Made by a program: the position numbers and the translations under genes. Below, piece by piece: positions 3,370 through 53,200 of a stretch of DNA of 64,000 bases. The notes beneath the pieces were generated by a model. That model made no database searches, was not told the origin of the DNA, and saw nothing but the letters and a program-made list of their open reading frames with translations. The DNA is from Tubiluchus corallicola. Taxonomy: Eukaryota; Priapulida; Priapulimorpha; Priapulimorphida; Tubiluchidae. How positions within the stretch are numbered: the stretch's first letter is position 1; every line of letters begins with the position of its first letter. The stretch is from assembly GCA_030141605.1 (NCBI GenBank), contig JAQGDQ010000633.1, forward strand, positions 1 through 64,000. Reading direction: 5' to 3'.

Positions 3370-3406
3370 ATGTGGCCCGGCTAGTCAGATAATTTGCACA
3401 CCCCTG
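3370..3406 (+). mobile_element. Truncated right end of a hAT MITE
   Basis: Matches the last bases of the complete MITEs at 47478 and 62081, ending TTTGCACACCCCTG. It is joined to the gag frame at shared AAAGTTTAA, so the junction has nine bases of microhomology. Confidence 0.85.
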
Positions 3407-10690: not shown

Positions 10691-11035
10691 TTTCCCTGAC
10701 ATATTTATACCTGCACCATAGATTCAATATTTCAAATTGAAAAGAATATTGTGAAATTTTTTCCCACCTCGTACAAGTTTAAATTTATGTAATTAAATTT
10801 TCGAGCCACCCTGTACTATGATAATTAAAGTCGTACATTAACATTTTTAAGCTAACCAATATTAACTGAATAAGGTAATTTTATCTGTACATTTGTTTAC
10901 ATATCGAGTTTGTGGACCACCCTGTACAAATCTATTACTGGTAAAATGTGACCATCCTGTAAAGTCTTTTAGGAGGCGAAATGTGGACCACCCTGTACAA
11001 ATTTATTACATTATTGCAATATTATTTATTACTTA

Positions 11036-11958
11036 ATTATTTAAATTTGTCTTAGTACAATGTAGCACACTTTTACCTGGTGACTTAATTATTTAAATTA
11101 GTCTTAGTACAATGTAGCACACTTTTACCTGGTGACTTAATTATTTAAATTAGTCTTAGTACAATGTAGCACACTTTTACCTGGTGACTTAATTATTTAA
11201 ATTAGTCTTAGTACAATGTAGCACACTTTTACCTGGTGACTTAATTATTTAAATTAGTCTTGGTACAATGTAGCACACTTTTACCTGGTGACTTAATTAT
11301 TTAAATTAGTCTTAGTACAATGTAGCACACTTTTACCTGGTGACTTAATTATTTAAATTAGTCTTGGTACAATGTAGCACACATTTACCTGGTGACTTAA
11401 TTATTTAAATTAGTCTTAGTACAATGTAGCGCACTTTTACCTGGTGACTTAATTATTTAAATTAGTCTTGGTACAATGTAGCACACATTTACCTGGTGAC
11501 TTAATTATTTAAATTAGTCTTAGTACAATGTAGCACACTTTTACCTGGTGACTTAATTATTTAAATTAGTCTTAGTACAATGTAGCACACTTTTACCTGG
11601 TGACTTAATTATTTAAATTAGTCTTAGTACAATGTAGCACACTTTTACCTGGTGACTTAATTATTTAAATTAGTCTTGGTACAATGTAGCACACATTTAC
11701 CTGGTGACTTAATTATTTAAATTAGTCTTGGTACAATGTAGCACACATTTACCTGGTGACTTAATTATTTAAATTAGTCTTAGTACAATGTAGCGCACTT
11801 TTACCTGGTGACTTAATTATTTAAATTAGTCTTGGTACAATGTAGCACACATTTACCTGGTGACTTAATTATTTAAATTAGTCTTGGTACAATGTAGCAC
11901 ACATTTACCTGGTGACTTAATTATTTAAATTAGTCTTAGTACAATGTAGCACACTTAC
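11036..11958 (-). repeat. 52-bp array repeating the ATP6V1H exon 3 donor (right arm)
   Basis: About 18 copies of the same unit downstream of the native exon 3. Again only the exon-adjacent copy has GTAAGTG; the others read GTAAAAG or GTAAATG. Confidence 0.95.
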
Positions 11959-12058
11959 CTGGTGACTGTGTGTTTTCAAAATGTCTGCTCGCTTCTCCGG
12001 TGAAGTGTTATCAAACATGGAAATAAAGTTGTAGTCATCATTAGTTATCATTTGACTC
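11959..12058 (-). CDS. ATP6V1H: ATP6V1H exon 3
   Basis: Acceptor TTTCTTTATAG, donor CACCAG/GTAAGT, 100 bp, ending in phase 0. It encodes the segment after NWQSY of subunit H. The donor is followed by a 52-bp array that repeats the exon end and donor. Confidence 0.92.
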
Positions 12059-15000
12059 CTATAAAGAAATAAATAGAAAAAGAATAAACAACAAGTATCA
12101 TGTATAAAATCTTCAGCAGTGGAACACAATAAGTAGTGTTACGACACTAAGGCCCATTTCACACCGAGGACTCAAGGAAAAATGACGCTATCAGAAAATT
12201 TTCTGAAAATTCCCGTTTTCTCCGGAAATCCCGCACTGCAAGAAAGTTCATTTCACAATAAAACCACAAGGTTTTTTCCATGTGCCCAGTTAGAGGGAGC
12301 TACTTTGCGAGTTTTGTACTGTATAACCTGGTCTAAATTAAGTTATACTTGCTGTATTTCTCATATACAAAGTACAGTTATTAATATTAGTAAATGTAAT
12401 GTCAGAACTGATTGTTTTTTTAGTAAAGTTCTACTAACTACTTCAAAATCTAAATCATACATGTATAAAAAAATATATGCATACGTTATTTTTTTTTCAT
12501 GAACATAGCAATCGATGTTGCATTAATAAAACATAAAGTTTGTTAAAAGAGATATTAAATATGCTGAAATGTGTTAATTGTTGTTAAATAAGAAAGAAGT
12601 AATTGACTAGTTAAATTTAAGACCGAATTCTGCAAGGATTCCTCATAAAAGTGGAACATGCAGTATTTCTACAATGCGGCAAAATTGCTCATGAGGAGGA
12701 TGCATAGCTTTTAGCTGGCGACGGAATTCCTAATGAGGAATTATGCCGTGTATCCTCTCTGTGAAATGTGCCCAAGAAAAAAATGTGTTCCATTATCGTG
12801 AATACTGCTGTAAGGAAATACTCCTCGAGGAATTTTGCCGTGAGTCTTCAGTGTGAAATAAACCGTAGAAAACGATGTGTCCCATTCCGGAGAGAAGTTC
12901 TGAGGTTCTCTGTCAATTTTATCTCTCTGCAAACCTCTATGGTTCAAACAAAGAAAGACAAATGAATCAGTGACGAACTACAGCTGAACTTTATGTTAAG
13001 GTAAAACTATTTAGATTTCTAATGTTGTCTGGCACTGTAGCTAACAATATCTTCATTAAAAATCCAGACTTCGGTCAGCCGCTCACCATTGTTAATGGTA
13101 CATCATTCTGTAAATGTGAGATTATTTTGCAAAATTAAAAATAATTTTACAGATGTTGCAAGAAAAGTAAAACAACAGATTAAAAACTGCAAAAAGCAAC
13201 AGTTCTTGTAGCAAACTTGCGGCAAGTCTGTGATGCTTACACTTTTCACAAACAAAATCAATTGAAATCTTCTTTGAAGGAAAACCGGACGATTGATTAG
13301 ACTCAATCTCATCTTAATTTACTGTCCAAAGTATTCATTTTCTTGCCTATAAAAGTTAGCAATTGTTTCTAATTTTGAATAATCACATTGGAAAGTTATT
13401 AACGGTAACTAAACACAGCTAATGCTTATATCACAAATCTAAATAAAGTTTGTGTAATGGTAGGCATCTTCCCTGCAGATCAAGCATGTTTACCCGTATA
13501 GCAGTGGTTCCCAAACTTTCTCGGACCGTTACCCAAATCGGGAAACCCGGTCGTGTCCATTACCCCCCACCTAGTACTTCTTCTCCAACTCAAAAAGTAA
13601 ACACACGTATATGCCACAAGCAAGCAAAATTATTTATGTTTGCTCGTGACATAAATAAATTTCCAGGTGTCGTTGTTATGTAAATATGAGCTTCATATTT
13701 AGTTATATTCAAGATATGTCTTCAAGAAGAAAACTACGTAAAATGCATTCAGAGCAAAGTTTTAAACATTTTCAGAGGGTGCCCGTTACCCCCCCCCCCC
13801 CAAAAAAAAACCATATTACCCGGGGGGGGGGGGTAATTTACCCCTACTTTGGGAACCACTGCCGTATAGGGTCACCGGGGGGTAAAAAATTACCTCCAGA
13901 CCGGTTTTTTGCATTTTACCCTTTTACCATACGCATCCCAGTAAACCTTTTCTATGACTTTTTCTAAATGTTTTGAGCACAAAATACGTTCAGTTATTTA
14001 TTTTAGGCGCATTGTCTCACCACGAAATAAAAGTGAAAATGCAATATGTCGATTTTTTAAAATTGTCGAAACTTTACTTCGCTTGTCTATACATTATACG
14101 GGCAATGTATCTGATAAAACAAAATGTCAGTTACTCAAATTACTCCACCTAAAAGAAGAAAGTAGTAGACAATAAATTCAAAATGACAATGATTTTTGCA
14201 CACGTGCTAGCAATGTTGGTTGTCTACAGCATCGATAAGGGTATGCAACTAAGTGAATTTAAATGTCTCATTACTAGTCACATGTGTTTAAGCAGAAGTA
14301 CAATGTATCCTATGGTGGTCAACATAACCACAAATTATGCTGTTGCTGTTTACTAATGAAACACGGCGGTTTATCAAAAGTAATTTACGAATTATGGTGG
14401 GCGTAGTTTTTTATCCCCCCCCGTTAACAAAATCGGTTGTAAAAAATCGTGACCCTATAAGGGTTATGTAAGTGAAGATTGCTATAAGGCATTGACATGA
14501 TGTCAGGAACATGAGTTCTATGTCACAGACGTACACTGCAATTTATAATCATGCTTATCACGGTACCACGCCTATTTGTCAGTCACGCAAATGTGATAAA
14601 AAGTAAGACTGGCAATGGTGCCTTTTCGTCACATTCGTGTGGCTGACAAATATGCCAGTCTAAATGGATTCGCCGAGCCACGCATAACTTTGAAGGTTTA
14701 ACAAAATTTAACTATCAGAGATAATTATTATTTAATCTAAGTTTTGATTTTAAAAAAGCTATTGTAGCTTTCAATATTTTAGAGCATACTTTATTTTGAA
14801 CTAATGTCCATGCAATCGTCTAGTTCATTAATATGTTTTTGCAAATTTAAGTTCTTGCACATAAAAGATAATTATAGTAATCTTACTGTTTGTACGACTG
14901 CCAGTTGACTCTGTTGTTACGTACATCGATGGCTTTTTGTTGCAAACGGCTGGTAGCAGCTACACCTGAAAGAGAATTGAGCAAGATTACAACAGTATGA

Positions 15001-23200: not shown

Positions 23201-26200
23201 ATACAAACAATAAACTATTACGCTAAGCAAAAAATTATGACTTTGTTTGTCATCGTAAAGCCCAAACAGTCGTTAAAGCAAAATATATGTCATTAAGTGA
23301 GAAAAAGATGTCAAATGTTCAAATGTGAAATTACGAGTCGTTACGCGAGAACTTACTGTATCGACAATCTTCAACTTAAATAGTTCTCTTGTTGTTGTTT
23401 GTTGTTTATTTATTTCACATCAACACAAATACACAATTAATACATTAAAAGAAACAAAAAGTTATCAATAATTCAATGAATAACAAACAGTAAGATACAT
23501 AATAGGTAGCAAATTTTGGAAAAAATGATTTAAACTGTCTTTAGACGTAGGTCAACCTATGGTAAACAAAGATAGTGATATCGTTACTTCCTTTAATACT
23601 GGTGTCTAAGCAACGTTATGTACAGCATCGTTACAAATATACTAACTTGACTCTCAAAACACTGAGGGGTTTACACAAGAGAATTATCGCTGTTGTATGT
23701 TGCTTAGTAAATTCGGATACAGTTTACTTCGAGCATATAACTAGTTTAGATATACCATAGTTTAGGTTTGCTATATATACAAATGTAAATGTGTTGTGGG
23801 CAATCAAAAAGCAGGGCTTGTTAGATTGTCCCACACTGCGAAAGAAAAAAAAGTAATAAAGTAATAATATATCTTCATACCTGAGATATTACCACCACGT
23901 GTAGGGTACAGGTTTTCCTGCGATGTACTTGCTGGCTCTACTTGCGATGCAGACGATGTAATGTTAGTCAACTTGTCATTCATCAAGGTTAAGTCATTCA
24001 GCACATCTTCACCTCCGATGCCTGCCAGATTGTGCTTTTGTAAGCCAGTCTCGGTCATGGCAGCCAGATTGTGCTTTTGTAAGCCAGTCTCGGTCATGCC
24101 TGCCAGATTGTGCTTTTGTAAGCCAGTCTCGGTCATGGCAGCCAGATTGTGCTTTTGTAAGCCAGTCTCGGTCATGCCTGCCAGATTGTGTTTTTGTAAG
24201 CCAGCCTCGGTCATGCCTGCCAGATTGTGCTTTTGTAAGCCAGTCTCGGTCATGCCTGCCAGATTGTGCTTTTGTAAGCCAGCCTCGGTCATGCCTGCCA
24301 GATTGTGCTTTTGTAAGCCAGTCTCGGTCATGCCTGCCAGATTGTGCTTTTGTAAGCCAGTCTCGGTCATGGCAGCCAGATTGTGCTTTTGTAAGCCAGT
24401 CTCGGTCATGCCTGCCAGATTGTGCTTTTGTAAGCCAGTCTCGGTCATGCCTGCCAGATTGTGCTTTTGTAAGCCAGCCTCGGTCATGGCAGCATTCTGT
24501 AAGTATTCGTTGTCTCGTCCCATGGGCAATGATGACGAATGAGCAACAGAAGTCGTTTGCTGATTCTGTTGTTGTTGTTGTTGTTGTTGCTGCTGCTGCT
24601 GTTGCTGTTGTTGATATGGTTCACTCGTGACCTGATGCACGCTTCCGACAAAATTCGTACCTTGTGGTAAATAATGCTGGGTGAAGCCCATTCCTACCGT
24701 GGTCAGATCGTGTTTTGATAAATGATCAGCTAGGCTGCTTGAAGTTGCACTACGACTGGTTAGATTCAGTGCAGGTTGCTGAATACCTTGAGGATTTACC
24801 TGCTGCGTGTCTGTTGCGGCAGCCTCCAGGTGGCGTATGAGTTCCGGTTGATTGACCGGATGATGTACTTGTACGTTCTCGTGTTTTTCGTGTTTCGACT
24901 GCACATTCAGTTGTTCTATTTGCACGGTCGCTTGCTGAACTTCCAAGCCGTGTTGACCACCCGCCATCATGGGTGCTATCCCAGGATGCACTTCGGCGGG
25001 TGCGGCGTGTTTACGTTGCGTCTCTTCCGACATACTTTGACTCTGTAGTAGGACGTTGGTACCTTCCGACTGCGTTAGCCCCTGATGGTAAATGTGTTTT
25101 AACTGTAAGACGCGTTTTTGTTCGGAAGTTTCCGAGTTCGGATGCTGCACTGCGGGCTGACCGACCGGACACATTCGTTGCGTGGCGCACAACACTTGCG
25201 CCGACACGTGCTGCGTCAATATGCGAGATGGGGATCCGAAAGGATTCTGCAAAGTAGGAGATTTCAATTCACAGGGCCATGCAGGATTTTGTCCGTCAGT
25301 AGGAGAGATGTGTTTCTCCTGTAACTGATAATTCTGTCCAAGCTGCATGGACATGTCCGGTGCAACGGTTTTAGTTTGCTGCACGGCTACGGTCTGTACC
25401 ATATTCTGAGAAGGCTCGATTAACATGTAATTAGCATTTTCTGACTGTTTGCCAAACATCAACGGTTGAGGTACGGCGGCCGTTACCGTTGCTTGATTGT
25501 TATCGAAACTCAACTGTTTCTGAGAACCGGCGACGCAGGCCGATTTCAGCTCTTTTCTGAGCGCACTCAGTTCCTCTCGGAGCGCGTGTAGTTCGCTGGT
25601 CGTCGGCTCGACCTTGACTCCGGGAGACGGAGGGACGTCTTCGCTCGGACTCGTCTGCACGGTAGCGGCTACTTTAGACGGCTGATGCTTCCTGGCAACT
25701 TGCGACTCCTTGACTGTCGGTAATACTGATAGCTGAGATAATTGGAATAGCTTGTTTATGTCTACGGCAGCTGAAACAAAAACAAAAGCACGTACAATTC
25801 CTAAAAATAAACATCATAAATTCTCTTTCTTTTATTATTTCATTTTATTTTATTTAAGAACATTTATATAATTCATTTTTTATAAAAGAAAATGGCAGCA
25901 GGTACATAGCACTTATTCTAGCCATGTAATACAATATAAAGTAATTTACAATCAGAGTTATAAAACAAATACATGTGCAGTAAAAACTATCATTAAACAA
26001 GAAAAAACTTAAAAACCTAAAAAACCTTAAAAGAAACTTAAGACGGAGAGACGCTACATACGGTAAAGAAATAATAACTTACATAAAATGATTAAAATGG
26101 CTGTAGTTTAAAAAGTTGCAAATTGTTAGTCTGGTGTTGAAACTGACAATATTTGATGCATTAACCACGTCATAATTAAGATCATTCCACGTAGGGACTA

Positions 26201-29200
26201 CTCTATTTGCAAACGAATATATATATGCACCTAATCTAGAAAGTTTGACAATTTGTAACGAGACCACGTAAATTTTGGACCACATAAATTACTTTGTTAC
26301 CTAAAATAATCTTTTTTAGAATTAACCAACTTCAAGAAAAATCATGCTGTCTTTGTCTCAAGCAGAATGGAAATAATTCGGAATTATTAAACTGTACGAC
26401 ACAAATGAAATGTGGTAGAAAATAATTTAGTTCTAAGGTGGCCTAAGACTTTGTACCAGCTCCCATGTGAGCTGCACTCTTGTTTTATAAATACAATAAA
26501 CTACGTATAACTAGAATTCTTGCGTTTCTCAAACACATCCCATGGAATGGATTTTTCGTTTTCATTTTTCTCTTTACCAAACATCGTGTTACTCGAATTA
26601 TCATGTAACTCCAATCGAATTCCCAGTACATTATAAGAATCTGACTCAAATTACCCCACCTATCTCAAACAAACTCTCAAACAAGAAGTCCTACATGAAA
26701 GTGTGCACCACATTACAATTTTAACTGCTAGTTTCAGCAAAAATGCTAAGATTTCTTGTATTACCTTAGGAGAACGCCCAACACAACATGGCTTAGCAAA
26801 CGTGGTTTAATGTAGATCACAATATTATTATTGCTGAATTCTATTAACCATGCTACTCAGACTACAATAGAGATGGACCAGTCATTTTATTTTTCATTAT
26901 TCATAAAAAATGTTGTCTGATATTTGATTAAAGACTCAGTTTGTCATTTTCACAGCCTGTAGTGTTACTAGTGTATTGTCCAACATTGATGAGTGACTCA
27001 ATCTTGTTTTCTTACAAACATTGTCCAACTTGTACCATCTCATAAAATACATACTATCTTAATCTTACAAATAATAGAATTTATAGACTATAAGTTTATC
27101 GTTTTTTGATATAAAATTGTTGCCGAACAGTGACACTCATCAAGAAGCTTGTGTCAGTTTTCTTTTCATTACATTCGACTTCTAGGCTTCATTTCTCTGT
27201 TGTACGTACATTTAAACAATTGACCACGCCCATAACGAGACTCGGTCATAGCGAGCAAATTTTCTCTGTCCCTCGAAACCCGTTAGTAAGCGGATTATAC
27301 GGTAGATCAAATATAAAATACAAGTTTCTTACTTTGTGACACCCCAGCAGGTAACTTCGCATCCTTGTCTTGCTCAAATGAAGCCAGTGCATCTAAAACG
27401 AATGAAACCACTAACAACACTTCTTTTTACGGAATATATGAGAGAAAGATGAGTGAAGAGTCTGTAATGGTGTTTATTATTCATTCACACAAAACTAAAC
27501 AATCACTTTACATTCAAGACTTGCCAAGACACTTTCTTTTACATCTTAACTCAAATTAAATTTCAACTTTTTTTAAAGGAAAGATCAAGCCTTCTGGGAA
27601 GTTAGGCTTATTTCCATGTTTGCAAAAAATGTTAGAAGGATTTAGTAATAAAACTGCAATAAGCGCCTCGTGTAATTAGTAAAATCACTTTAAAGTTGCG
27701 ATCACTTCATGCTTGGACGCTCCCATTTTCAATGTCCATTCTTCTTCCAATGACGTCATTCGTCTAGAAGAAAAGTAGCGCACTGTCGAACTTTGTCAAA
27801 AGTATGAGAAGTTTTTACAAAATATTTGATAACTAATTTTTTTGCAACATTTCTGCGTGAACATTAAGTAAGCTACAAAAGTTTAAATTAGTTTAAGTAA
27901 TGCGCATAAAGTTAGGAAGTCTCCCAGTTATGTCATGATTTTCAAGTGAACTGCAGCTACCCCCACACTTGAAAATTTCTATTCAGAGGTAGAATATGTA
28001 AATTTATGCTTTATAGGCAGTTCTTTGCAAATTTCTTTGTTATAACTTTAGAAGTTTAAATTATAACAGTAAAATAGACCCAACATGCTGAGTGACTTGT
28101 TCGTTCCTTTAAATTAACATAGCAAAGTGCATAAATTAGTTCGAGTACTAATAACTCTAGAGTATTGAACTTAGTAAACAAATCGTGTATTAGTTCCAGT
28201 ACTAATAACTCTAGAGTACTGAACTTAGTAAACAAATCGTGTATTAGTTCGAGTACTAATAACTCTAGAGTACTGAACTTAGTAAACAAATCGTGTATTA
28301 GTTCGAGTACTAATAACTCTAGAGTATTGAACTTAGTAAACAAATCGTGTATTAGTTCGAGTACTAATAGCTCTAGAGTATTGAACTTAGTAAACAAATC
28401 GTGTATTAGTTCCAGTACTAATAACTCTAGAGTATTGAACTTAGTAAACAAATCGTGTATTAGTTCCAGTACTAATAACTCTAGAGTACTGAACTTAGTA
28501 AACAAATCGTGTATTAGTTCGAGTACTAATAACTCTAGAGTACTGAACTTAGTAAACAAATCGTGTATTAGTTCCAGTACTAAGAGCTCTAGAGTACTGA
28601 ACTTAGTAAACAAATCGTGTATTAGTTCGAGTACTAATAGCTCTAGAGTATTGAACTTAGTAAACAAATCGTGTATTAGTTCGAGTACTAATAGCTCTAG
28701 AGTATTGAACTTAGTAAACAAATCATGTATTAGTTCCAGTACTAATAGCTCTAGAGTATTGAACTTAGTAAACAAATCGTGTATTAGTTCCAGTACTAAT
28801 AACTCTAGAGTACTGAACTTAGTAAACAAATCGTGTATTAGTTCCAGTACTAATAACTCTAGAGTACTGAACTTAGTAAACAAATCGTGTATTAGTTCGA
28901 GTACTAATAACTCTAGAGTACTGAACTTAGTAAACAAATCGTGTATTAGTTCCAGTACTAATAGCTCTAGAGTATTGAACTTAGTAAACAAATCGTGTAT
29001 TAGTTCCAGTACTAATAGCTCTAGAGTATTGAACTTAGTAAACAAATCGTGTATTAGTTCCAGTACTAATAGCTCTAGAGTATTGAACTTAGTAAACAAA
29101 TCGTGTATTAGTTCCAGTACTAATAACTCTAGAGTATTGAACTTAGTAAACAAATCGTGTATTAGTTCGAGTACTAATAACTCTAGAGTACTGAACTTAG

Positions 29201-32200
29201 TAAACAAATCGTGTATTAGTTCGAGTACTAATAGCTCTAGAGTATTGAACTTAGTAAACAAATCGTGTATTAGTTCGAGTACTAATAGCTCTAGAGTATT
29301 GAACTTAGTAAACAAATCGTGTATTAGTTCCAGTACTAATAGCTCTAGAGTATTGAACTTAGTAAACAAATCGTGTATTAGTTCCAGTACTAATAACTCT
29401 AGAGTATTGAACTTAGTAAACAAATCGTGTATTAGTTCGAGTACTAATAACTCTAGAGTACTGAACTTAGTAAACAAATCGTGTATTAGTTCCAGTACTA
29501 AGAGCTCTAGAGTATTGAACTTAGTAAACAAATCGTGTATTAGTTCGAGTACTAATAGCTCTAGAGTATTGAACTTAGTAAACAAATCGTGTATTAGTTC
29601 GAGTACTAATAGCTCTAGAGTATTGAACTTAGTAAACAAATCGTGTATTAGTTCCAGTACTAATAGCTCTAGAGTATTGAACTTAGTAAACAAATCGTGT
29701 ATTAGTTCCAGTACTAATAGCTCTAGAGTATTGAACTTAGTAAACAAATCGTGTATTAGTTCGAGTACTAATAGCTCTAGAGTATTGAACTTAGTAAACA
29801 AATCGTGTATTAGTTCCAGTACTAATAGCTCTAGAGTATTGAACTTAGTAAACAAATCGTGTATTAGTTCGAGTACTAATAGCTCTAGAGTATTGAACTT
29901 AGTAAACAAATCGTGTATTAGTTCGAGTACTATTAGCCCTAGAGTATTGAACTTAGTAAACAAATCGTGTATTAGTTCGAGTACTAATAGCCCTAGAGTA
30001 TTGAACTTAGTAAACAAATCGTGTATTAGTTCCAGTACTAATAACTCTAGAGTATTGAACTTAGTAAACAAATTGTGTATTAGTTCGAGTACTAATAGCT
30101 CTAGAGTATTGAACTTAGTAAACAAATCGTGTATTAGTTCCAGTACTAAGAGCTCTAGAGTATTGAACTTAGTAAACAAATCGTGTATTAGTTCGAGTAC
30201 TAATAGCTCTCGAGTATTGAACTTAGTAAACAAATCGTGTATTAGTTCCAGTACTAATAGCTCTAGAGTATTGAACTTAGTAAACAAATCGTGTATTAGT
30301 TCCAGTACTAATAGCTCTAGAGTATTGAACTTAGTAAACAACGTATTAGTTCTACTAATAGCTCTAGAGTATTGAACTTGTAAACAAATCATGTATTAGT
30401 TCGAGTACTAATAGCTCTAGAGTATTGAACTTAGTAAACAAATCGTATAGTTCCACTAATAGCTCTAGAGTATTGAACTTAGTAAACAAATCGTATTAGT
30501 TCCAGTACTAATAGCTCTAGAGTATTGAACTTAGTAAACAAATCGTATTAGTTCGAGTACTAATAGCTCTAGAGTATTGAACTTGAAACAAATCGTATTA
30601 GTTCCAGTACTAATAGCTCTAGAGTATTGAACTTAGTAAACAAATCGTGTATTAGTTCGCAGTACTAATAGCTCTAGAGTATTGAACTTAGTAAACAAAT
30701 CTGTATAGTTCAGTACTAATAGCTCTAGAGTATTGAACTTAGTAAACAAATCGTGTATTAGTTCGAGTACTAATAGCTCTAGAGTATTGAACTTAGTAAA
30801 CAAATCGTGTATTAGTTCGAGTACTAATAGCTCTAGAGTATTGAACTTAGTAAACAAATCGTGTATTAGTTCCAGTACTAATAGCTCTAGAGTATTGAAC
30901 TTAGTAAACAAATCGTGTATTAGTTCCAGTACTAATAGCTCTAGAGTATTGAACTTAGTAAACAAATCATGTATTAGTTCCAGTACTAATAGCTCTAGAG
31001 TATTGAACTTAGTAAACAAATCATGTATTAGTTCGAGTACTAATAGCTCTAGAGTATTGAACTTAGTAAACAAATCATGTATTAGTTCCAGTACTAATAG
31101 CTCTAGAGTATTGAACTTAGTAAACAAATCGTGTATTAGTTCCAGTACTAATAGCTCCAGAGTATTGAAATTTCTATACACTGTATGATAAAACAGATCA
31201 TGTATTTACCATGTACTGCTGGTAAGAACATGAACGGCTGTGGATCGCTTCTTCTGTCCTGAACTTTCACTACAACATTCATGGCAACTGGTTCTGACAT
31301 AGTGAGATCTCTGTAGGCTGGCATCTTAAATATCAAGTGTGTCTGAAATGTGAACCATCATTCATCAGCATCAACACGTAACAGTTAATAAATGTTATAA
31401 AACTTCAGAGTAAAAGGCCTTTTCACAGTTCCAGCGATTGATGATGATCGTGAAAAGGTCAAAGGTTAAGTGTACTAGACAATGCATTTGTGTACACTTG
31501 ACAATGCCTCGCAAACCGAGCTATTGTAATAGTAACAGTTTTAACAGCTAGCTAGAACTTTACCTAGTTCATTTTTTCTTGTTCCTAAGCAAGATCCTGC
31601 TAGTAAATCACTCTATGCACAGACAAATGCATAATTAAGTAAAGTTCACGTGAAAGAACTGATGTGGCAGTCAGCTTTGGTTTACCCCCATATCACATGA
31701 TGGTTTGATTGAAGACATGCACACAAAGGAAACTGTGAAAAGGCTTATTTAAGAGATGCTGAACAAGAGACTTACTTGCTGCAAGAATTCTTTATCCACT
31801 TCAGCTGATTTTGACCAAATTTCTTCACCATCTGAACAAAAAAAATTGAATGTGATGAATAGTCTACTTGAAGCTAAAACTGACCAAGTCTACTTGAAGC
31901 TAAAACTGACTAAGTCTACTTGAAGCTAAAACTGACCAAGTCTACTTGAAGCTAAAACTGACCAAGTCTACTTGAGCTAAAACTGACCAAGTCTACTTGA
32001 AGCTAAAACTGACCAAGTCTACTTGAAGCTAAAACTGACCAAGTCTACTTGAAGCTAAAACTGACCAAGTCTACTTGAAGCTAAAACTGACCAAGTCTAC
32101 TTGAAGCTAAAACTGACCAAGTCTACTTGAAGCTAAAACTGACCAAGTCTACTTGAAGCTAAAACTGACCAAGTCTACTTGAAGCTAAAACTGACCAAGT

Positions 32201-35200
32201 CTACTTGAAGCTAAAACTGACCAAGTCTACTTGAAGCTAAAACTGACCAAGTCTACTTGAAGCTAAAACTGACCAAGTCTACTTGAAGCTAAAACTGACC
32301 AAGTCTACTTGAAGCTAAAACTGACTAAGTCTACTTGAAGCTAAAACTGACCAAGTCTACTTGAAGCTAAAACTGACCAAGTCTACTTGAAGCTAAAACT
32401 GACCAAGTCTACTTGGAGCAAAACTGACTATAACTTAACTGACATCACCAGGTCAGGATTTCATTGCACTATTCGTAACAGAAAAGAGCATGACAGACAA
32501 ACAGCCAACGCTGGCTCACCTTTGTCGGTTTCTATTATCAATACTGTCGTTCCTTTGAGAAAATTCTTGCCAATAATGAACACGTCACAACCACCGGACA
32601 ATGGACACTCAGATATGGACATGCGGCAAATCTCGGGTTGACCGGGAGGCTGAGCTGAAATAAATCAAGAATGCAGTCAGTCATTTAACACATAAATTCT
32701 GTTACGTTCATATTTAAGCTTTTGAAGAAGTCATTCTATTCTAAGAGTGTTAACAAACTGAAAATCAGATATCGTTATTATCGTTCCTCACGTGTTTCGC
32801 CCTGCCAAGGGCTTCGTTACAAATTCTATAAGATTCTACTACGATTTGGCAAAAACTTGAATATTTTCACAGAATTAATTTAAAACTTTACACTGTGATA
32901 GCAAGCCATAACTTTCTATACAGCAGGCCTGAGGTGGGCATACAGGACGATAATACAGATGCCTGTTAAATGAGATTGCATTAGAAAAAAAGAGTTCAAT
33001 TTTGAATATCTGAAACAGAGTTCAATTTTGAATATCTGAAAAAGAGTTTAATTCTGAATATCTGAAACAGAGTTCAATTTTGAATATCTGAAACAGAGTT
33101 CAATTTTGAATATCTGAAAAAGAGTTTAATTCTGAATATCTGAAACAGAGTTCAATTTTGAATATCTGAAACAGAGTTCAATTTTGAATATGTGAAACAG
33201 AGTTCAATTTTGAATATGTGAAACAGAGTTCAATTCTGAATATGTGAAACAGAGTTCAATTTTGAATATCTGAAAAAGAGTTTAATTCTGAATATCTGAA
33301 ACAGAGTTCAATTTTGAATATCTGAAACAGAGTTCAATTTTGAATATGTGAAACAGAGTTCAATTCTGAATGTCTGAAACAGAGTTCAATTTTGAATACC
33401 TTAAACAGAGTTCAATTTTGAATATCTGAAACGGAGTTCAATTTTGAATATCTGAAACGGAGTTCAATTTTGAATATCTGAAACAGAGTTCAATTTTGGA
33501 TATCTGAAACAGAGTTCAATTTTGAATATCTGAAACAGAGTTCAATTTTGAATATCTGAAACAGAGTTCAATTTTGAATATCTGAAACAGAGTTCAATTT
33601 TGAATATCTGAAACAGAGTTCAATTTTGAATATCTGAAACAGAGTTCAATTTTGAATATCTGAAACAGAGTTCAATTTTGAATATCTGAAACAGAGTTCA
33701 ATTTTGAATATCTGAAATGGAGTTCAATTCTGAATATCTGAAACAGAGTTCAATTTTGAATATCTGAAACAGAGTTCAATTTTGAATATCTGAAACGGAG
33801 TTCAATTTTGAATATCTGAAATTCTGAGATTGTTGCCATTTGCAGCTCTGGTATTCATTGATCGACGGAGGTACAATCTCGGGAGTTTTTAAAAGGAAAT
33901 CAGCGTCATGTTTCAAGTTCTTCAATGTTCCTTTGCACGTTTCGTAAAGATTAAATCAACACTTACTGCAGAGTATAGGATAAATCAACACTTACTGCAG
34001 AGTATAGGATAAATCAACACTTACTACAGAGTATGGATAAATCAACACTTACTACAGAGTATAGGATAAATCAACACTTACTGCCGAATATAGGATAAAT
34101 CAACACTTACTGCAGAGTATANNNNNNNNNNNNNNNNNNNNNNNNNNNNNNNNNNNNNNNNNTAAATCAACACTTACTGCAGATTATAGGATAAATCAAC
34201 ACTTACTGCAGAGTATAGGATAAATCAACACTTACTGCAGAGTATAGGATAAATCAACACTTACTGCAGAGTATAGGATAAATCAACACTTACTACAGAG
34301 TATGGATAAATCAACACTTACTACAGAGTATAGGATAAATCAACACTTACTGCCGAATATAGGATAAATCAACACTTACTGCAGAGTATAGGATAAATCA
34401 ACACTTACTGCAGAGTATAGGATAAATCAACACTTACTGCAGAGTATAGGATAAATCAACACTTACTGCAGATTATGGGATAAATCAATACTTACTGCAG
34501 ATTATAGGATAAATCAACACTTACTGCAGATTATAGGATAAATCAACACTTACTACAGAGTATAGGATAAATAAACACTTACTGCAGATTATAGGATAAA
34601 TCAACACTTACTACAGAGTATAGGATAAATCAACACTTACTGCAGATTATAGGATAAATCAATACTTACTGCAGAGTATAGGATAAATCAACACTTACTG
34701 CAGAGTATAGGATAAATCAACACTTACTGCAGAGTATAGGATAAATCAACACTTACTGCCGAATATAGGATAAATCAACACTTACTGCAGAGTATAGGAT
34801 AAATCAACACTTACTGCAGAGTATAGGATAAATCAACACTTACTGCAGAGTATAGGATAAATCAACACTTACTGCAGAGTATAGGATAAATCAACACTTA
34901 CTGCAGATTATAGGATAAATCAACACTTACTGCAGAGTATAGGATAAATCAACACTTACTGCAGAGTATAGGATAAATCAATACTTACTGCCGAATATAG
35001 GATAAATCAACACTTACTACAGAGTATAGGATAAATCAACACTTACTACAGAGTATAGGATAAATCAACACTTACTACAGAGTATAGGATAAATCAACAC
35101 TTACTGCAGAGTATAGGATAAATCAACACTTACTGCAGAGTATAGGATAAATCAACACTTACTACAGAGTATAGGATAAATCAACACTTACTACAGAGTA

Positions 35201-38200
35201 TAGGGGCTGTTGAAACTTGCAGAACAACTGAAGATTCGTTTTCTCTGGGTATCGTAACTCTGAGTACCAGTTTCGCTTTATTCGATTTTTTTCTTAGTCG
35301 CTGAGCCGTATTCGATCCCAGCCGATGCTCAACGTCAGCATTGCGCAGTTTGAGTATTCCGACACAGTCCAAGCTGAAAAAATAGTTTAAGACAAGTTAT
35401 AGAGATTTGAAGAACCAGTTTAGCGGAAGAAAACTGGTTAAGCAGCCAAAGATGTGTGCTCGGCTACAAAGTTCAGCAGTACTGGACCTGTTTAATGAAT
35501 GGATGAGTGACTGTGTAGTTTCATCTGCCACAATGTTTCTAAGTTTTGCTCATAAAGTTCAGCAGTACTGGACCTGTTTAATGAATGGATGAGTGACTGT
35601 GCAGTTTCATCTGCCACAATGTTTCTAAGTTTTGCTCATAAAGTTCAGCAGTACTGGACCTGTTTAATGAATGGATGAGTGACTGTGTAGTTTCATCTGC
35701 CACAATGTTTCTAAGTTTTGCTCATAAAAATACACGTTCGAGAAACAACTTTGCCACTTCCTTGGCATTTCAATCGCAGAAGTTATTATCACGTCATCAG
35801 GGCGGAAGATTTGTGTCACTAACAACTTGATAATCCACTTACTGACTAGTGAATAAGTGAGTAATACTACAGATAATGTCCATTGTTTCGCGAGCTGACC
35901 GCTAGTTCATACACCAGATACAGTCCATTGTTTTGCGAGCTGACCGCTAGTTCATACACCAGATACAGTCCATTGTTTCGCGAGCTGACCGCTAGTTCAT
36001 ACTACAGATACAGTCCATTGTTTCGCGAGCTGACCGCTAGTTCATACTACAGATACAGTCCATTGTATTGTTTCGCGAGCTGACCGCTAGTTCATACTAC
36101 AGATACAGTCCATTGTATTGTTTTGCGAGTTGACTACTAGTTCATACTACAGATACATCCATTGTTTCGCGAGCTGACCGCTAGTCCATACTACAGATAC
36201 AGTCCATTGTTTCGCGAGCTGACCGCTAGTTCATACTACAGATACAGTCCATTGTTTCGCGAGTTGACTACTAGTTCATACTACAGATACAGTCCATTGT
36301 TTCGCGAGCTGACCGCTAGTTCATACTCCAGATACAGTCCATTGTTTCGCGAGCTGAACGCTAGTGCACACTACAGATACAGTCCATTGTTTCGCGAGCT
36401 GACCGCTAGTTCATACTCCAGATACAGTCCATTGTTTCGCGAGCTGACCGCTAGTTCATACTACAGATACAGTCCATTGTTTTGCGAGCTGACCGCTAGT
36501 TCATACTCCAGATACAGTCCATTGTTTCGCGAGATGACCGCTAGTTCATACTACAGATACAGTCCACTGTTTCGTGAGCTGACCGCTAGTGCATACTACA
36601 GATACAGTCCATTGTTTCGCGAGCTGACCGCTAGTTCATACTACAGATACAGTCCATCGTTTCGCGAGCTGACCGCTAGTTCATACTACAGATACAGTCC
36701 ATCGTTTCGCGAGCTGAACGCTAGTGCATACTACAGATACAGTCCATCGTTTCACGAGCTGACCGCTAGTTCATACTACAGATACAGTCCATCGTTTCGC
36801 GAGCTGAACGCTAGTGCACACTACAGATACAGTCCATTGTTTCGCGAGCGGACCGCTAGTTCATACTACAGATACAGTCCATCGTTTCGCGAGCTGAACG
36901 CTAGTGCATACTACAGATACAGTCCATCGTTTCGCGAGCTGACCGCTAGTTCATACTACAGATACAGTCCATTGTTTCGCGAGCGGACCGCTAGTTCATA
37001 CTACAGATACAGTCCATTGTTTCACGAGCTGACCGCTAGTTCATACTCCAGATACAGTCCATTGTTTCGCGAGCTGAACGCTAGTGCACACTACAGATAC
37101 AGTCCATTGTTTCGCGAGCTGACCGCTAGTTCATACTACAGATACAGTCCATTGTTTCGTGAGCTGAACGCTAGTGCACACTACAGATACAGTCCATTGT
37201 TTCGCGAGCTGACCGCTAGTTCATACTACAGATACAGTCCATTGTTTCGCGAGCTGACCGCTAGTTCATACTACAGATACAGTCCATTGTTTCGCGAGCT
37301 GAACGCTAGTGCACACTACAGATACAGTCCATTGTTTCGCGAGCTGACCGCTAGTTCATACTCCAGATACAGTCCATTGTTTCGCGAGCTGACCGCTAGT
37401 TCATACTACAGATACAGTCCATTGTTTCGCGAGCGGACCGCTAGCTGGCGAGTCGTCACTTTGTTTACGTCATTACATACTAGACATTTTTGAGACAATA
37501 CGGACAATCTGCAAATTTGGACCAATGTCTCCCTCCCTTTGTCCGGCAAGCCAAGATACCAGTATATTATGTACACTAATTGGGAAAGCAGCCTCCAAAT
37601 AAATGGTGTTTCAATACATGAAGACTCTTTAAACAACAACTAAACACATATTCAGTATCATTTTTATGGTTCGAAAGGATTTATCGTATCCTGTGAAAAA
37701 CCCGTTATCGATATCGTATCATTGGAAAAAAGCATCGTACTGAATCATGTTCAGTATCATTTTTATGGTTCGAAAGGATTTATTGTATCCTCTGAAAAAC
37801 GATATTGTATCATTGGAAAAAAGCATCGTACTGAATCATATTCAGTATCATTTTTATTGTTCAAAAGGATTTATTGTATCCTGTGAAAAACATGTTATCG
37901 ATATCGTATCAATGGAAAAAAGCATCGTACTGAATCATATTCAGTATCATTTTTATTGTTCAAAAGGATTTATCGTATCCTGTGAAAAACATGTTATCGA
38001 TATCGTATCGTTGGAAAAAAGCATCGTACTGAATCATATTCAGTATCATTTTTATTGTTCAAAAGGATTTATCGTATCCTGTGAAAAACCCGTTATCGAT
38101 ATCGTATCATTGGAAAAAAGCATCGTACTGAATCATGTTCAGTATCATTTTTATGGTTCGAAAGGATTTATTGTATCCTCTGAAAAACGATATTGTATCA

Positions 38201-41200
38201 TTGGAAAAAAGCATCGTACTGAATCATATTCAGTATCATTTTTATTGTTCAAAAGGATTTATTGTATCCTGTGAAAAACATGTTATCGATATCGTATCGT
38301 TGGAAAAAAGCATCGTACTGAATCATATTCAGTATCATTTTTATTGTTCAAAAGGATTTATCGTATCCTGTGAAAAACATGTTATCGATATCGTATCGTT
38401 GGAAGAAAGCATCGTACTGAATCATGTTCAGTATCATTTTTATCGTTCGAAAGGATTTATCGTATCCTGTGAAAAACATGTTATCGATATCGTATCGTTG
38501 GAAAAAAACATCGTATTGAGTCATTATCGTATCACCAAACTTACACACTCGTTCAGATTAACTGAACGTCCGAGACATTTTACCGCATTTTCCCTTCCCA
38601 CCCCCTCATGGTATTTTCCAACAGTGAACTGGGTCACATATTATGAGAGTGATTAAAATGAAAGAAAAAACATGAATTTTCCTTCATTTTATGCGGTGGT
38701 TCAATCAACTTGCACAAAGACGAGTATCATTTAACATCCTACTTGAGTTACTGTCCAATTCCAAAAGTTCGCATACTTAATAACTGTTCACTAGCAGTGC
38801 TGAAGAATTCTATTTGCATACCAATTGTTCTAAACACTGTTAAAAGCATTAGAAAAACCTTACAAATAACATTTAAGCATATTTACACAATGATACTACA
38901 CTATATGCTTTTTTATTTACACTTACATGGCCGTCATCTTGTTATCCGGGAGAAGCATCATTTCAATAACGTTGGTTCCTTCGATGATTTTCTTCTCGCA
39001 CGGAGACGAGTTTTTGCCCTGAACTTCGCAAGCTTGATAATAACCGTGAGGCTTAACCTTTGCTGTATCTGATGCTAGAAATACTTGTAGTTTGACTGCT
39101 TCATCATAACCTGTTAACTATACAAACAAATAATCATCTATACAAACAAATAATCATCTATACAAACAAATAATCATCTGTGCAAACAGATAATCAACTA
39201 TGCAAACAAATATTCATTTATAAAAACAAATAATCATTTATACAAACAAATAATCATCTATGCAAACAAATAATCAACTATACAAACAAATAATCAACTA
39301 TACAAACAAATAATCATCTATACAAACAAATAATCATCTATACAAACAAATAATCATCTATACAAACAAATAATCATCTATACAAACAAATAATTATCTA
39401 TACAAACAAATAATCATCTACAAAAAACAAATAATCAACTATACAAACAAATAATCATCTATACAAACAAATAATCATCTATAAAAACAAATAATCAACT
39501 GTACAAACAAATAATCATCCATACAAACAAATAATCATCCATACAAACATCATCTATACAAACAAATAATCATCTATACAAACAAATAATCATCTACAAA
39601 AACAAATAATCAACTATACAAACAAATAATCATCTATAAAAACAAATAATCATCTATACAAACAAATAATCCTCTACAAAAACAAATAATGAACTATGCA
39701 AACAAATAATCATCTATACAAACAAATAACCATGTCACATGACTCATATTAAGAACGCGAGAGCACCATGCAGAGGGTGGCACATGAGGGGTGACGAATT
39801 TATATCATTTTTTTCTAACATGAAGGGCGACCCCCCAAAACCATGTAACCAAGATATCAAATCGATCGAGCTACTATTAGCAGAGAAATGACCACATCAA
39901 GAAATTGACCTCAAAAGAGGCAAAAAATCGCTATTTAGGGGGGTTATTTTAACTTTTTCTCCTGTATAAACTATTATAGATGGGTCGATGTAAGTTGGCT
40001 GGTACATAGACCCAGACATTGTCTTCTGATATCCTAACTTTTTCTGACATACTATTAATAGTATCAGAGAACGGGATTTTTTCAAATTCGGCTCTTTGTT
40101 AAGAGTCCCGGGAGAGGTTAAGTTGTAAGGCTCAAAACTCGCCCACTGCGGGGCTACAGAACTTCTGGTTTTCATGTATGTGTTAACCATCATTCGCATG
40201 TTTCAGTATTCAGTACTGGCACTTTAAAATTTCACAAAAATCAGCAAAATTAGCCTTTTTTGTAGTTTTTCAATATTTTTTCTATCTATATCCTGGATTA
40301 TAAGTGACAAATCTGTATTCTAAATTTCATGAAAACGCACGAGCTGAGATAATATCATGAATGACATTATATAAAGGGGGCACTGTTAGAAAAAACTGTT
40401 AGAAAAAAGAGCCCATATCAACACACTTTTTTGCTTTCCACAGTAATTCCATCCATGTGTAAAAGGTAGACATACTTGGCTCAGGTCGTTATATGACAGT
40501 AGACATTTAGCCACGTTTAACCTGCATTTTCTGTGACTAGTGTTCTCCATTCCTAGTAGCAATAGATTCCTTTGCCATGGAAATTGCTAGAAATTTGCGA
40601 ATTTCATCTTAAATTGGTTTAGTTATGTCGGAATTTTCATATGACTACAAATATGAATAATTGCCTCTTCTGATGGATTTCAGGACAGGACATCATGCAT
40701 GCCCCTAGTACCGAGTCCGACCCTGATTCAGGGCATTCTCTACACACTGAATCGCTAGTGGATACCAGGAAAGACTAAACAATAAGCCCTCTAATAGAAA
40801 AGAAGTACCGATTGTTAAGATTGAGAGTCATTGCTAGCGAAAGAATCTGACAACGCTTGGTATATACATATAAAATAGAAATCCGTTCATTTTTATACAT
40901 TCGTTCATTTTTTATACATTTTATATGAATAAGCTTCATGGCTATACATAGAAGATTATGAATATCAGTACAAAAATGAAAAACTACAAAACTCAGTCAG
41001 AATTAATTTCTCTAAGTCCAAAATACTGTTCCTATTGTAGCAGCATAATCCTATCACTGAAGAGTAGTACAAGTAATCAAAACCATAATATCTAAATAAT
41101 AGAGAAAGAATTATCGATGCAGGTAGATTATCACTAGAAGATAGATACAGAAATATAGACAAATATATCATGGGGAAAGTGATAAAGTGAAAATCTTACA

Positions 41201-44200: not shown

Positions 44201-47200
44201 AAACTGAAATTTTGAACTTAAACTGTGTAAACGTGAATTGTGTAAACTTAAATTGTGTAAACTTGATTTGTGTAAACCCGATTTGAAATATAGTGACTTT
44301 TGAAAAAAAAACTTTTTTCTATATTTTATTTTGGCGGGCCCCTTGCTCTTTTGTCAATTTATTTTTTTTTACAACAAAAAAATTTTTTTCGTTTTATTTT
44401 GCCGGGCCCCTTTTGATCCCGGGCCTTAGGCTTCAGCCTATTCAGCCTATAGGGCTATCCGCTACAGGTCGTAAAGTATCAAAGTAAACGTATCGTACGA
44501 GTGTGAACAATCATTAAATATGTAACAATAACACATAGAAGATCTCATCAACTTGTGGTGAAAGGTACAGAAAAAGAGAGATCTCAACTGCAACAGTGAG
44601 CAAACTTATCAATAACTGTAATAGCTATCATACTGATTTGAAACTAACAAGACAGTCATGGAAAATTATCTGCTGGGTTAAATCTCCACGTCCATAGACA
44701 GGAATATTTCACGTTCACACAAAGTAAACAAAAACACAAATACAACAACAAATGCAGCAGTTTCACATTACCGAACATTCTGATTTTTATCACCTAAATT
44801 TATTAACTCCTTCAGGACTGTAAGTGTTTGCTACATTTTGCATGGCTTCATGAAAACTGCTCTCACTAAGCAGCGATTATGTTATATTTAATAATTTTTG
44901 TAGGTTTCTACTCCTCACATGATGGATTTTCATGCAAAATTATATATGAAATGCATTTGCTTACCTTATGCAAATTAAACATCGATTTTTGGTGAAAAAA
45001 TTGAAAAAAGTTTTCAGTAACTGCAGTGTTTGCACTGTAACAATGTACAGTATCACTTGTGTGAAATCAGCTAATGCAGAAAATTTCAACTATCCAGACA
45101 CAACACACTGATAAACTTTGATTTCAAGTCCACTCTATTTTTAAGGACAAATTCCTGTTAAAAGATGAAACGACCTTAATTTCTCATTGGATGATCAGTT
45201 AGCTTTTCCTGAAACTGTGTTCAGAAGACAGCTCTCTTGGGCTGTAGCAAGCAGGTGATCAATAAAATAGTGTGTACGATCACACAAGTGTACACCAGAC
45301 TAAGCTACTCAATGGGCTAAGTTAGAGAGCCTGAAAATGGGCGTTCTTTTCTTAATTTTATCCAATAAATCACTTATAAATGCTTAAACAAACAGCATGA
45401 TTGGATAACCGAGATTCTCCTGAATAGAACAGTACCAAATTTGTAATCATTTAGTTGTGTCTGTACTCATACAGTAGCAGAAAAGTCACAGGTCTTACAA
45501 AACTTATTTTTGAACGGTGCGGTTCTGAAGGGGTTAAACTCTTTACCTTCACAGTGGGATGGCTCTTCTGTGATCTATCTTTGACCGCTCCTCTGCTTCC
45601 CTCGGTCAAGTAACGAGCACGATGGTTCTCCTCCGGCTGAACAACAACAACCAGTTCATATTTACCCACTTTACTGGGCAGCTGCGCGCTCAAGGATGGA
45701 CCCCTGAAAAACCAACAGCAAACTGATGCACTCCATCACCAGAAGATGGCTAAATTACGATCAAATTATTGCTAATTTGAAAAAAACTAATATTTTGAAT
45801 TTAATAAAAAAAGGTTCAATCTGATATTTATTAATGTTTCCATTGGTTACCCAAATAAATTAGCCGCATTGTTTTTACCCAAGACTAATATTTCTACCCG
45901 CTTTCAACAATGAAAATGATGACATTGTTAAATTTTGTAATACGATATAATCTAGCACTGATTATAAGGTTCGTTCAAAATTTTTGAAGATTAGATATCC
46001 TATACATTTTTAAAATGCTAACGATCTGCCTTAACCTAAAAAACTGTCTTTCCATTTTTTTTCAAAATCAGTTTGGTGACCATCTTGGATTCTCAAAATG
46101 GCAGCATGCACTTCTACAGTAGGTACCTATACTAGTAGACTATTACCTGCTGCATTGGCAGTGTGCCAGGATAACAGCCAGCACGCAGATGACAGATCAA
46201 ACCATTTTTGCCGTAGGGGTGACTTACAAAAAACACATTATGGTTCCTTTACCAAGAGGTTAATTATCCAAATAAAATTTTTATTAACCTTTAAAAACCT
46301 ATTTCGGGTGACTATTTCAAAGACACGAATAAACAGATTGTTAAGTTTAACAGAATACAAAAAGGATAATATAGATTATTTTATTTTCCTAATACCTACA
46401 CCACATTAATAGTACTCGGTGTGGTACTACCTAGGTTGGCTCGTTGTTAACGTGTGCAATTAGGGTAATTAAGCAGTCACATATACAACTGACAGATAAA
46501 AACTCAATGAAATGCCTTGTGTGGGGGGAAAACACAAACTTTCGCTACTCACAGCTCGTGTGTTCAGGCTCTCAGGGTGTAATAAATGAATGCTTGATGT
46601 TCACATAACAGTGCAGTTAGTTGAGAATACAAATGCTTTCAGTTTCTTCACTGCTGCTGAAGTTTAACAATTGGGTGTCGGCAGGTATGAGGAAAAGAGT
46701 ACCCTAGTCTGATTTTTGCTACCCGCTTAAACACTTATAATCAATAGCAGCGTGTTGTTTGATTTAGTAGTAAGAAGTTTGCCATATAAATAACGCTCAA
46801 CACGTGACAATCATTTGCACAGACATACTTATTTTCTGTCATAAGCCAAATTAGTGTAAGAGCAAAAGTCAGTGAAATCAGTCAGTTAGTCAGTCAGTCA
46901 GTCAGTCAGTTCACACAGTCAGGCAGTTAGTTAATCAATCGCTGAGTGAGTGAATGAGTGAGTCAGTCAGTCAGTCAATAATCACTCGGTCAGACAACCC
47001 AATCGCCAACGAATCAGTCAGTCAGTTAACCAAATTCACACAAACTTTAGGCTATAAGAGAATTAAGATGGTTAGGCTTTTTTAACTAACCATGTAACCG
47101 TTATTAATTGCGGTTGGTTAACCGTTTAACCATTATTAATTGTTGTGAGTTAACCGTTCAATCATTCCCGCTGACGTCATACATATAATAAAATATAGAA

Positions 47201-50200: not shown

Positions 50201-53200
50201 ACATGCATTCCCACCGCAGTTTAGAGTATATAGTAAACTACGTATAACTTGATGTGTTATAACTTGAATTCTTGTGCATTTCGAACAGATCTCGTGGAAA
50301 GAAATTTCTTTTTCATTTTTCTCTTTAGCAAACACCATGTAACTCAAAATCTGAAACTCGAATTATTGTGTTTCGTAAGTGAGGTAGTTGAACTCAACCC
50401 GAATTCCCGGTACAATTCTTAAGAATCTGATTTAAATCACCTCGCCTATCTCAAACAGCCTCCCAAGTGAGAAGTCCTACATGAAAGTGTGCACTACATC
50501 ACGATTTTAACTGCTAGTTTGGCAGAAATGCTAAGATTTCTTGTATTACCTTAGCAGAACTCTGCACACAAAATGGCTTAACGAACGTGGTTTAATGAAG
50601 ATTACAATATTATTATAGCCAAATTCTATTAACCATGCTAACCATTAAACATAGAGGTGGACCAATCAACTTTTACTTTTGATTATTCATAAAAACTGTT
50701 GTTTAATATTTGATTAAAAGCTGTCAAGTTTGTCATTTTCACAGGGTGTAGTGTAACTAGCAGACTGTCCAACATTGACGAGTGACTCAATCTTGTTTTC
50801 TTACGAACATTGTCTAACTCAAACTTTCGCATAACTCGAATAAATGTTCCGGTCCGGATAAATGTTCGAGTTATACGCTGCTTACTGTATATTCACTTTG
50901 CAGAGCTGAGGCATTTACAGTGCTACACAAAACGAACTCATTTGTGCGCAAAAATAAATGCAAGTATACAAGAAATAAAACTGTAATCTCTAGAGAAGTC
51001 ATGGAGTAGATAAGTGACCAATTCATTTTGACAATACAGTAGCAACCATTATATAGACTGATGGTTAACAGAATCAGTCGCTTAATTGACTCAAAAATGT
51101 CTGGTACGGGCTGCTCCTATTCAAATGTATATAAAAACTATCAGTAAATATGTTATCAGTATGTATCAGTGCATTAATATGTTAGTATAGCAGTTTTGCT
51201 TTGAATCTGTCACCCGCTTGTCCACTGCAGTTAACCTCATTGTTTCTGGAAGCTAAACATTTAATCACTTGACCAGCGGTTTGCTTTGAATCTGTCACCC
51301 GCTTGTCCACTGCAGTTAACCTCGTTGTTTCTGGAAGCTAAACATTTAATCACTTGACCAGTGGTTTGCTTTGAATCTGTCACCCGCTGGCCACTGCAGT
51401 TAACCTCATTGTTTCTGGAAGCTAAACATTTAATCACTTGACCAGTGGTTTGCTTTGAGTCTGTCACCCGCTTGTCCACTGCAGTTAACCTCGTTGTTTC
51501 TGGAAGCTAAACATTTAATCACTTGACCAGCAGTTTGCTTTGAATGTGTCACCCGCTTGTCCACTGCAGTTAACCTCGTTGTTTCTGGAAGCTAAACATT
51601 TAATCACTTGACCAGCGGTTTGCTTTGAATCTGTCACTCGCTTGTCCACTTCAGTTAACCTCATTGTTTCTGGGAGCTAAACATTTAATCACTTGACCAG
51701 CGGTTTGCTTTGAATCTGTCACCCGCTTGTCCACTGCAGTTAACCTCGTTGCTTCTGGAAGCTAAACATTTAATGACTTGACCAGTGGTTTTGCTTTGAA
51801 TCTGTCAGCCGCTTGTCCACTGCAATTAACCTCGTTGTTTCTGGAAGCTAAACATTTAATCACTTGACCAGCGGTTTGCTTTGAATCTGTCACCCGCTTG
51901 TCCACTGCAGTTAACCTCATTGTTTCTGGAAGCTAAACATTTAGTCACTTGACCAGCGGTTTGCTTTTAAAGTTCCCTCTGCTTTTCACAGAGGAAACAA
52001 GATCATCACCAACTTCAGCTCAAGCACTAGGTGACTAGGTGTTTTGAGTGAATATGTACAGTATACAGTAACAGATTTAAGTTTTTATCATTAAGAGAAT
52101 TTCATAAACCAACTTCTGCGTGAAGAAATGAAGCAACTGACCTCGCATGTATTTTTGTAATTTTTACTGGTAATAAACAGATTTGTGGGGTTTTTTTATT
52201 TTTTTTATTAATTTATATAAATTAATATTCTTAACTAATTGCACATATGAATTTTGACATTGATTCATTTCTAAAATTCATTTCTAAAATTCGTTTCTAA
52301 AATTTGCTTAAATCCTTTGCAATGCATACTAAGGTAATGAGTGATGACTCATAGTTCTATAGTAACAACAAGTTAATTGAATCAGCCGGTTAATTGGGTC
52401 AAGACACTTCCTTCCCAAATCGAGTCAATTAGGCGAATGATTCTATTAACCGTGAGTCTAATAAGCAGCACCTACTGTAGTCATCAAAAACATTTGAGCA
52501 AAATGTAAATTGTCAAACCTTGACCGTGATAGGATGGGCAAGCTTCTCTTCATCCAACTGACCCGGGTCAGTCGTGTCTTCCCGCTCCGAGTCTGATGTC
52601 AAGCCATGAGAATCGCTGTCGACGGGCTGCTGAGAATCGTCTACTGACAGGAAACTGTCATCTAACTCTTGAACAGTCGGTCGAAACATTACCCTTTGTT
52701 TAGGCACAGTCTGTTAGGAAAAAAAAGATCATTGTTACAAAATGGCATCTGAATACCTTGCTGATCTTTTAATATGTCGTAACATACCCCAAACACGTTC
52801 TAATGCTAATGAACTAGTATGTAAGTAAGTATCTTTATTTATCGCCTTTTTTACAAGACAAACACAAAGCATGAAACGATAATATATGATACAAAGTGAC
52901 AAGGTTATTAAATGAATAAATTATCTGAGTTAATGGTGTTCAAGTGATTGGTGAAAGGGTGGCGAAAAACTAAAAGTTACCAAAGTCAACAGATTAATTC
53001 ATTTACATCAGCCAATTCCTAATGCAGTATTCTATGGTGAAAAAGCTTTTTCTGTCTGTACACGTCTCTGGAACGACTTACTGCTGCTATACGTTCTACA
53101 AATCTATTAGACTGTTTTAAACAACATCTTAAAACACATTTATTCAAATTCTACATTTATCATATTTGATGCCCTTTTAAATTTTATGTTCCTTGTGAAT

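Follow-up and report, generated by a model that had tools for sequence, protein, structure and literature searches.

How is a gene spliced correctly when the donor at the end of one of its exons is followed by some 40 near-identical copies of itself? Tandem alternative splice sites such as NAGNAG and GYNNGY let two close and equivalent sites compete at one exon edge, and the choice of the spliceosome among equal sites has usually been examined on engineered sites, two or three at a time; at the locus described here there are tens. A preliminary description, made from the letters of 64,000 nucleotides of Tubiluchus corallicola DNA (hereafter the window), had placed such an array at exon 6 of an NFAT5 gene. 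Here we analyzed the gene, its arrays and their surroundings, together with the rest of the genome assembly.

Identity of the gene and its exons

The protein obtained by joining minus-strand exons 4–8 (numbered as in the preliminary description) was a Rel-homology protein with NFAT5 (1imh) as its closest solved structure (E 4.5e-80, 271.8 bits), the NFATc family scoring lower with the same query (at best 156.8 bits, for NFATc2). With both DNA-binding and dimerisation Rel-homology domains (Pfam RHD_DNA_bind and RHD_dimer, each above cut-off in the joined protein) and a greater nearness to NFAT5 than to NFATc, the gene was identified as NFAT5, as had been proposed. Exon 4 (45547–45702, minus strand like all exons given here) ends in the residues HPTVK with the donor AAG/GTAAAG in phase 0; exon 5 (38927–39117) ends in KMTAI and aligned gaplessly to KLEGHNEPVVLQVF of 1imh; exon 6 (35192–35373) ends in APILC and TGTA/GTAAGTG in phase 1; exon 7 (32521–32654) follows the acceptor TTTATTTCAG/CTCAGCCT at 32654 and ends in IETDK, its 3′ end probably lying at 32520 (AAAG/GTGAGC); and exon 8 (31210–31342) ends in FMFLPA with the donor ATG/GTAAAT. 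An extra small exon near 31775–31831 fits a stretch absent from the joined query. A large downstream NFAT5 exon carries an in-frame 39-bp repeat (12 copies, 13-residue unit) at 24018–24488, beside a polyglutamine run.

Joining TGTA of exon 6 to exon 7 gave a sequence that aligned without a gap to PILCTQPAGVPEI of NFAT5 in 1imh, and this homology, running across the junction, fixes the exon 6 donor where it had earlier been placed. There was likewise no gap at the junction of exons 4 and 5, and exons 4–8 join in frame, so that the donor and the acceptor directly adjacent to the exons can be taken as functional. Exon 6 was found in a single copy across the genome search and NFAT5 appears to be single-copy in the assembly; a correct mRNA must therefore be produced from it.

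A donor array in contact with exon 6

Exon 6 ends in CCTATACTCTGTA/GTAAGTG at 35192 on the minus strand, and a tandem array touches the exon at this point. Tandem Repeats Finder delimited the array to 33952–35204 (minus strand), with a period of 29 and 43.0 copies of the unit CCTATACTCTGYA/GTAAGTGTTGATTTAT, in agreement with the figure of about 43 given previously. The unit consists, as had also been stated, of 13 exon bases and 16 intron bases; the duplication thus spans the exon–intron boundary, and the first unit is the authentic junction as located by the exon 6/7 homology. A search with the junction 20-mer, allowing up to three mismatches, gave 42 readable copies, all on the minus strand (0.02 in shuffled sequence), which apart from the assembly gap described below were spaced at 28–29 bp throughout. 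GTAAGT was intact in all 42. Before the cut, 31 copies read GCA and the remaining 11, the exon-adjacent copy among them, read GTA, so that the earlier reading of the copies as TGCA describes the majority but not all of them. For all three sequences tested, covering the exon-adjacent donor and copies of it, the predicted U1 duplex energy was −7.6 kcal/mol, in line with the view that the decoys equal the real donor. The 29-bp unit was confined to the present contig in a search of the 343.5-Mb assembly.

Because the 13 exon bases of the unit encode PILC, which is conserved in human NFAT5, the array derives from the exon end and not the other way round. We propose that a short segment over the junction of exon 6 and its intron was duplicated in tandem in this single-copy gene, and that slippage or unequal exchange would then have enlarged it into a minisatellite confined entirely to the intron; the larger-scale repeated blocks seen within the array would fit unequal exchange. 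Recursive splicing of the ratchet type was also considered for the 29-bp unit and rejected, the AG and GT of TGCA/GTAAGT sharing a G and the AG being followed by TAAG.

A gap of 41 N lies inside the array at about 34122–34162, making the true copy number (about 43) approximate. The donor spacing over this gap is no multiple of 29, and both features could point to an array that was misassembled, collapsed or inflated, or to a locus that is a dead copy. We nevertheless hold such an artefact to be very improbable, given that real variants distinguish the copies, that NFAT5 exons stand collinear at both ends of the array, and that the exons found were all open and in order, with one copy in the genome.

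An acceptor array in contact with exon 5

The array at exon 6 is not an isolated oddity: it has a mirror image in an acceptor array one exon upstream, another donor array in its neighbourhood, and surroundings of NFAT5 introns rich in minisatellites. The start of exon 5 aligned to LEGHNEPVVLQVF of NFAT5, following directly upon the end of exon 4 (HPTVK), and this alignment places the acceptor at TATAG/TTAACAGG (39118/39117). The 616 bases 5′ of it are an array of 31.0 copies (Tandem Repeats Finder) of the 20-bp unit ATGATTATTTGTTTGTATAG, at 39118–39733 on the minus strand. The unit is itself an acceptor (TTATTTGTTTGTATAG/), offering a pyrimidine-rich tract and an AG each time, and the final unit ends exactly at the authentic exon 5 AG. 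Within 39118–39760 there are 29 AGs, namely the native one and 28 that precede it. The acceptor array of exon 5 and the donor array of exon 6 thus lie one intron apart, each on the intron side of its exon, and we suggest that the former may have expanded in the same manner as the latter, up to the exon 5 acceptor.

These arrays might also be kept for a purpose other than splicing, namely telescripting, with the repeats recruiting U1 into the intron and guarding the pre-mRNA from premature polyadenylation. The intact U1-binding GTAAGT of all readable donor copies would suit such a role, but the acceptor array and the other arrays of the NFAT5 introns have no strong donor consensus; telescripting can therefore not account for the whole set, and we find it barely credible.

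Consequences of using a decoy site

All 41 distal donors lead to the identical stop, at the same codon (APILCSKC*), bearing out the in-frame TGA predicted earlier, and a stop within 19 codons likewise follows from every one of the 28 AGs upstream. Where a truncated isoform had been put forward as one outcome, the stop itself is thus real. A stable truncated protein, however, would be less likely than nonsense-mediated decay of the mRNA, which is to be expected at both arrays because introns lie downstream of the stops (several of them in the case of the donors).

The equal strength of the donors predicts some leakage to the decoys, which counts against exclusive use of the exon-adjacent site, and it is conceivable that such leakage is regulated: the decoys would be partly used, with copy number setting the amount of NFAT5 mRNA that is lost, perhaps in response to salt stress. 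That every decoy yields a stop shortly past the junction, and that GTAAGT has been retained in each readable donor copy, would agree with regulated unproductive splicing. A precedent for use of downstream repeats comes from human IFI6 (6-16/G1P3), with its minisatellite bearing multiple donors (Turri, Cuin and Porter 1995, as cited in PMC4526556); according to the latter, two downstream repeats are used as donors, giving three mRNAs that code for isoforms. The conservation of GTAAGT was, however, not significant as a sign of selection among the copies, with a chance of about 0.11 that variation misses the six donor positions (hand calculation, assuming about 8 variable sites in 29 and treating as independent copies that have been homogenised). 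We consider this regulated use of the decoys rather unlikely.

Other arrays in the window

A second donor array, with a unit of 52 bp, was found at 405–2819 on the plus strand. Here an open frame ends in ACACACAGTCACCAG/GTAAGTG (exon-adjacent CACCAG/GTAAGTG at 408) and is followed by units each having a donor, most of them reading CACCAG/GTAAAAGTG and others GTAAATG or GTAAACG, with GTAAGTG confined to the edge of the putative exon both here and in an inverted duplicate of the array (11031–11967, minus strand, 18 copies). The predicted U1 duplex was −15.0 kcal/mol for the exon-adjacent site versus about −8.6 kcal/mol for the copies; this array carries a probable donor, with decoys weaker than the exon-adjacent site. 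The partner exon of its putative exon was a weak SAP match below cut-off, near retroelement sequence, and the genome contains a few relatives of it. The CACCAG/GTAAAA of the 52-bp unit has the AG-then-GT arrangement of a ratchet site, but lacks a clear pyrimidine tract. As to the surrounding DNA, positions 1–3373 and 10481–12371 are the arms of an inverted duplication of recent date (99.3% in the first 739 bp). Each arm bears the 52-bp donor array, and a kinesin fragment and an RNase H of retroelement type lie close to the arms or in the stretch that separates them.

A possible fourth case lies at 28135–31169 (minus strand), where 57 copies of a 54-bp unit start 41 bp past exon 8. There is a tentative resemblance between the unit and the exon 8 donor junction, minus the GT: in a post hoc comparison the alignment scored 26, with p about 0.001 relative to the window's other 70-mers. 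Two frames are open across hundreds of codons in this array.

Most of the remainder of intron 6 is taken up by 32 copies of a 26-bp unit having no donor (32987–33821, minus strand). Neither this array nor the 26-bp array at 31861–32428 or the 31-bp array at 21913 showed a clear origin from a neighbouring junction, and the same held for the 45-, 86- and 99-bp arrays of intron 5. A few of these comparisons gave p values of 0.02–0.05, as expected among some 50, and a flank that takes in the array, which is the situation at 21913, makes the test trivially positive. Arrays of an 85–86-bp unit were found at two unrelated places (51195–51967 of the window and L047:6495–8262), and this minisatellite is therefore dispersed. 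A search of Rfam gave no RNA family within the window.

Tandem arrays made up 28.9% of the window; at other loci, amounting to 232 kb, their share was 3.3%. They accounted for 72% of intron 5 and 82% of intron 6; arrays have thus landed throughout NFAT5. When ten arrays were placed at random in the examined part of the gene, the probability of at least two junction-spanning founders was 0.028, or 0.002 for at least three if the exon 8 case is counted, in what is a post hoc model. Two junction arrays in NFAT5 are thereby somewhat above chance, which is suggestive only. Chance placement stays plausible (P about 0.03), as arrays are so dense in the window compared with elsewhere.

Donor-bearing arrays in the genome

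Donor-bearing minisatellites, recognised genome-wide from repeat words alone, are common in this genome and occur at many unrelated loci. Donor-bearing arrays were located, among other places, in G000 at C5:114068–115527, C29:36685–36871, C29:99722–99938, C30:24250–25404, C173:18477–19135 and C467:27003–28654. Tandem triples of AGGTRAGT numbered 1984 in the whole genome, while its three permuted forms gave 245, 111 and 181; long arrays and dispersed families, one of the latter apparently protein-coding, inflate all such counts. Triples of CAGGTGAGT belonged to at least about ten unrelated unit families among the matches listed, whereas the reversed word, searched across the whole genome, gave a single family.

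These numbers, taken with the probabilities of 0.028 and 0.002 above, raise the possibility that splice junctions seed arrays more than other DNA does, the excess of donor arrays being several-fold. Seeding would be active, R-loops or transcriptional pausing at donors being conceivable routes, and donor arrays would then be recurrent rather than chance products. In favour of this reading, the donor word was only about 1.5–2 times commoner than the permuted words in single-copy DNA (17 versus 5–16). Apart from the swollen match counts, two results speak against it: GTAAGT alone was in no excess genome-wide, in a test where microsatellites of the (GTAA)n and (TGAA)n types predominated, and acceptor words were not enriched genome-wide either (2240 versus 3369). 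Active seeding by junctions is in our judgement unlikely. That donors seed minisatellites repeatedly and that the paired NFAT5 arrays in addition form a length-tunable switch, setting the amount of functional NFAT5 through wasteful splicing, is quite improbable.

 A dispersed 15/30-bp repeat (GGTAAGTTTGGTACA) in G000 (C507, C557, C823, C911, C939, C1226 and others) is read in frame as GKFGT; it is apparently protein-coding and can pass for a donor. Donor arrays were often arranged in inverted pairs some 6–27 kb apart, as in G000 at C17:50586/56129, C38:57265/64212, C555:40912/68256 and C676:274407/280364, recalling foldback-type elements. Kinase-domain matches of identical score, with one TAG, occurred at six places of G000 (C1974, C2072, C2074, C2107, C1752 and C1831:1260430) and are probably a recently spread element.

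Discussion

The reading that we favour, at a probability of roughly two in three, is that junction segments of NFAT5 grew in tandem and that exon definition, with decay of the erroneous mRNAs, accounts for the arrays seen today. The spliceosome would take the exon-adjacent site, which makes the shortest exon, and mRNA made with any other site would acquire an early stop and undergo nonsense-mediated decay. Only use of the exon-adjacent site leaves the exon intact, and exon definition would achieve this at both ends; the arrays may be tolerated because splicing takes that site.

Parts of this arrangement have counterparts elsewhere. The minisatellite of IFI6 has a unit of 12 bp and keeps the frame. 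That of NFAT5, set apart from it by description, has a frame-shifting 29-bp unit, always leads to a stop and is accompanied by an acceptor array; the likeness is in a minisatellite that starts at the exon end and whose repeats offer extra donors. Tandem duplication across an exon–intron boundary, copying the splice signals, can create an intron, as with potato RdRp (PMC4974935); there a single duplication gave a new intron, whereas about 43 copies lengthen an old one in NFAT5. Intronic minisatellites have also been tied to splicing decisions in C. elegans, with CeRep25B (PMC4039745), but these are proposed regulatory motifs inside introns, while in NFAT5 each repeat unit is itself a splice site. 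In a partial search of the literature, no paper turned up that described an acceptor array, or donor and acceptor arrays in one gene. The combination of the two within one gene thus looks new, a donor minisatellite being already known from IFI6.

Single-copy NFAT5 thereby offers a natural test of splice-site choice, with about 43 near-identical donors at one exon edge, about 29 acceptors at another, and a working protein only from the copy that touches each exon. Exon definition predicts the exon-adjacent site for donors and acceptors alike; a rule of first transcribed, first used predicts the exon-adjacent donor but the farthest acceptor; scanning for the first AG past an upstream branch point predicts the farthest acceptor; and intron-proximal preference predicts the last donor. 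Counts of site use in ordinary RNA reads would distinguish these models. The NFAT5 arrays also show a route by which introns grow with no change in the protein.
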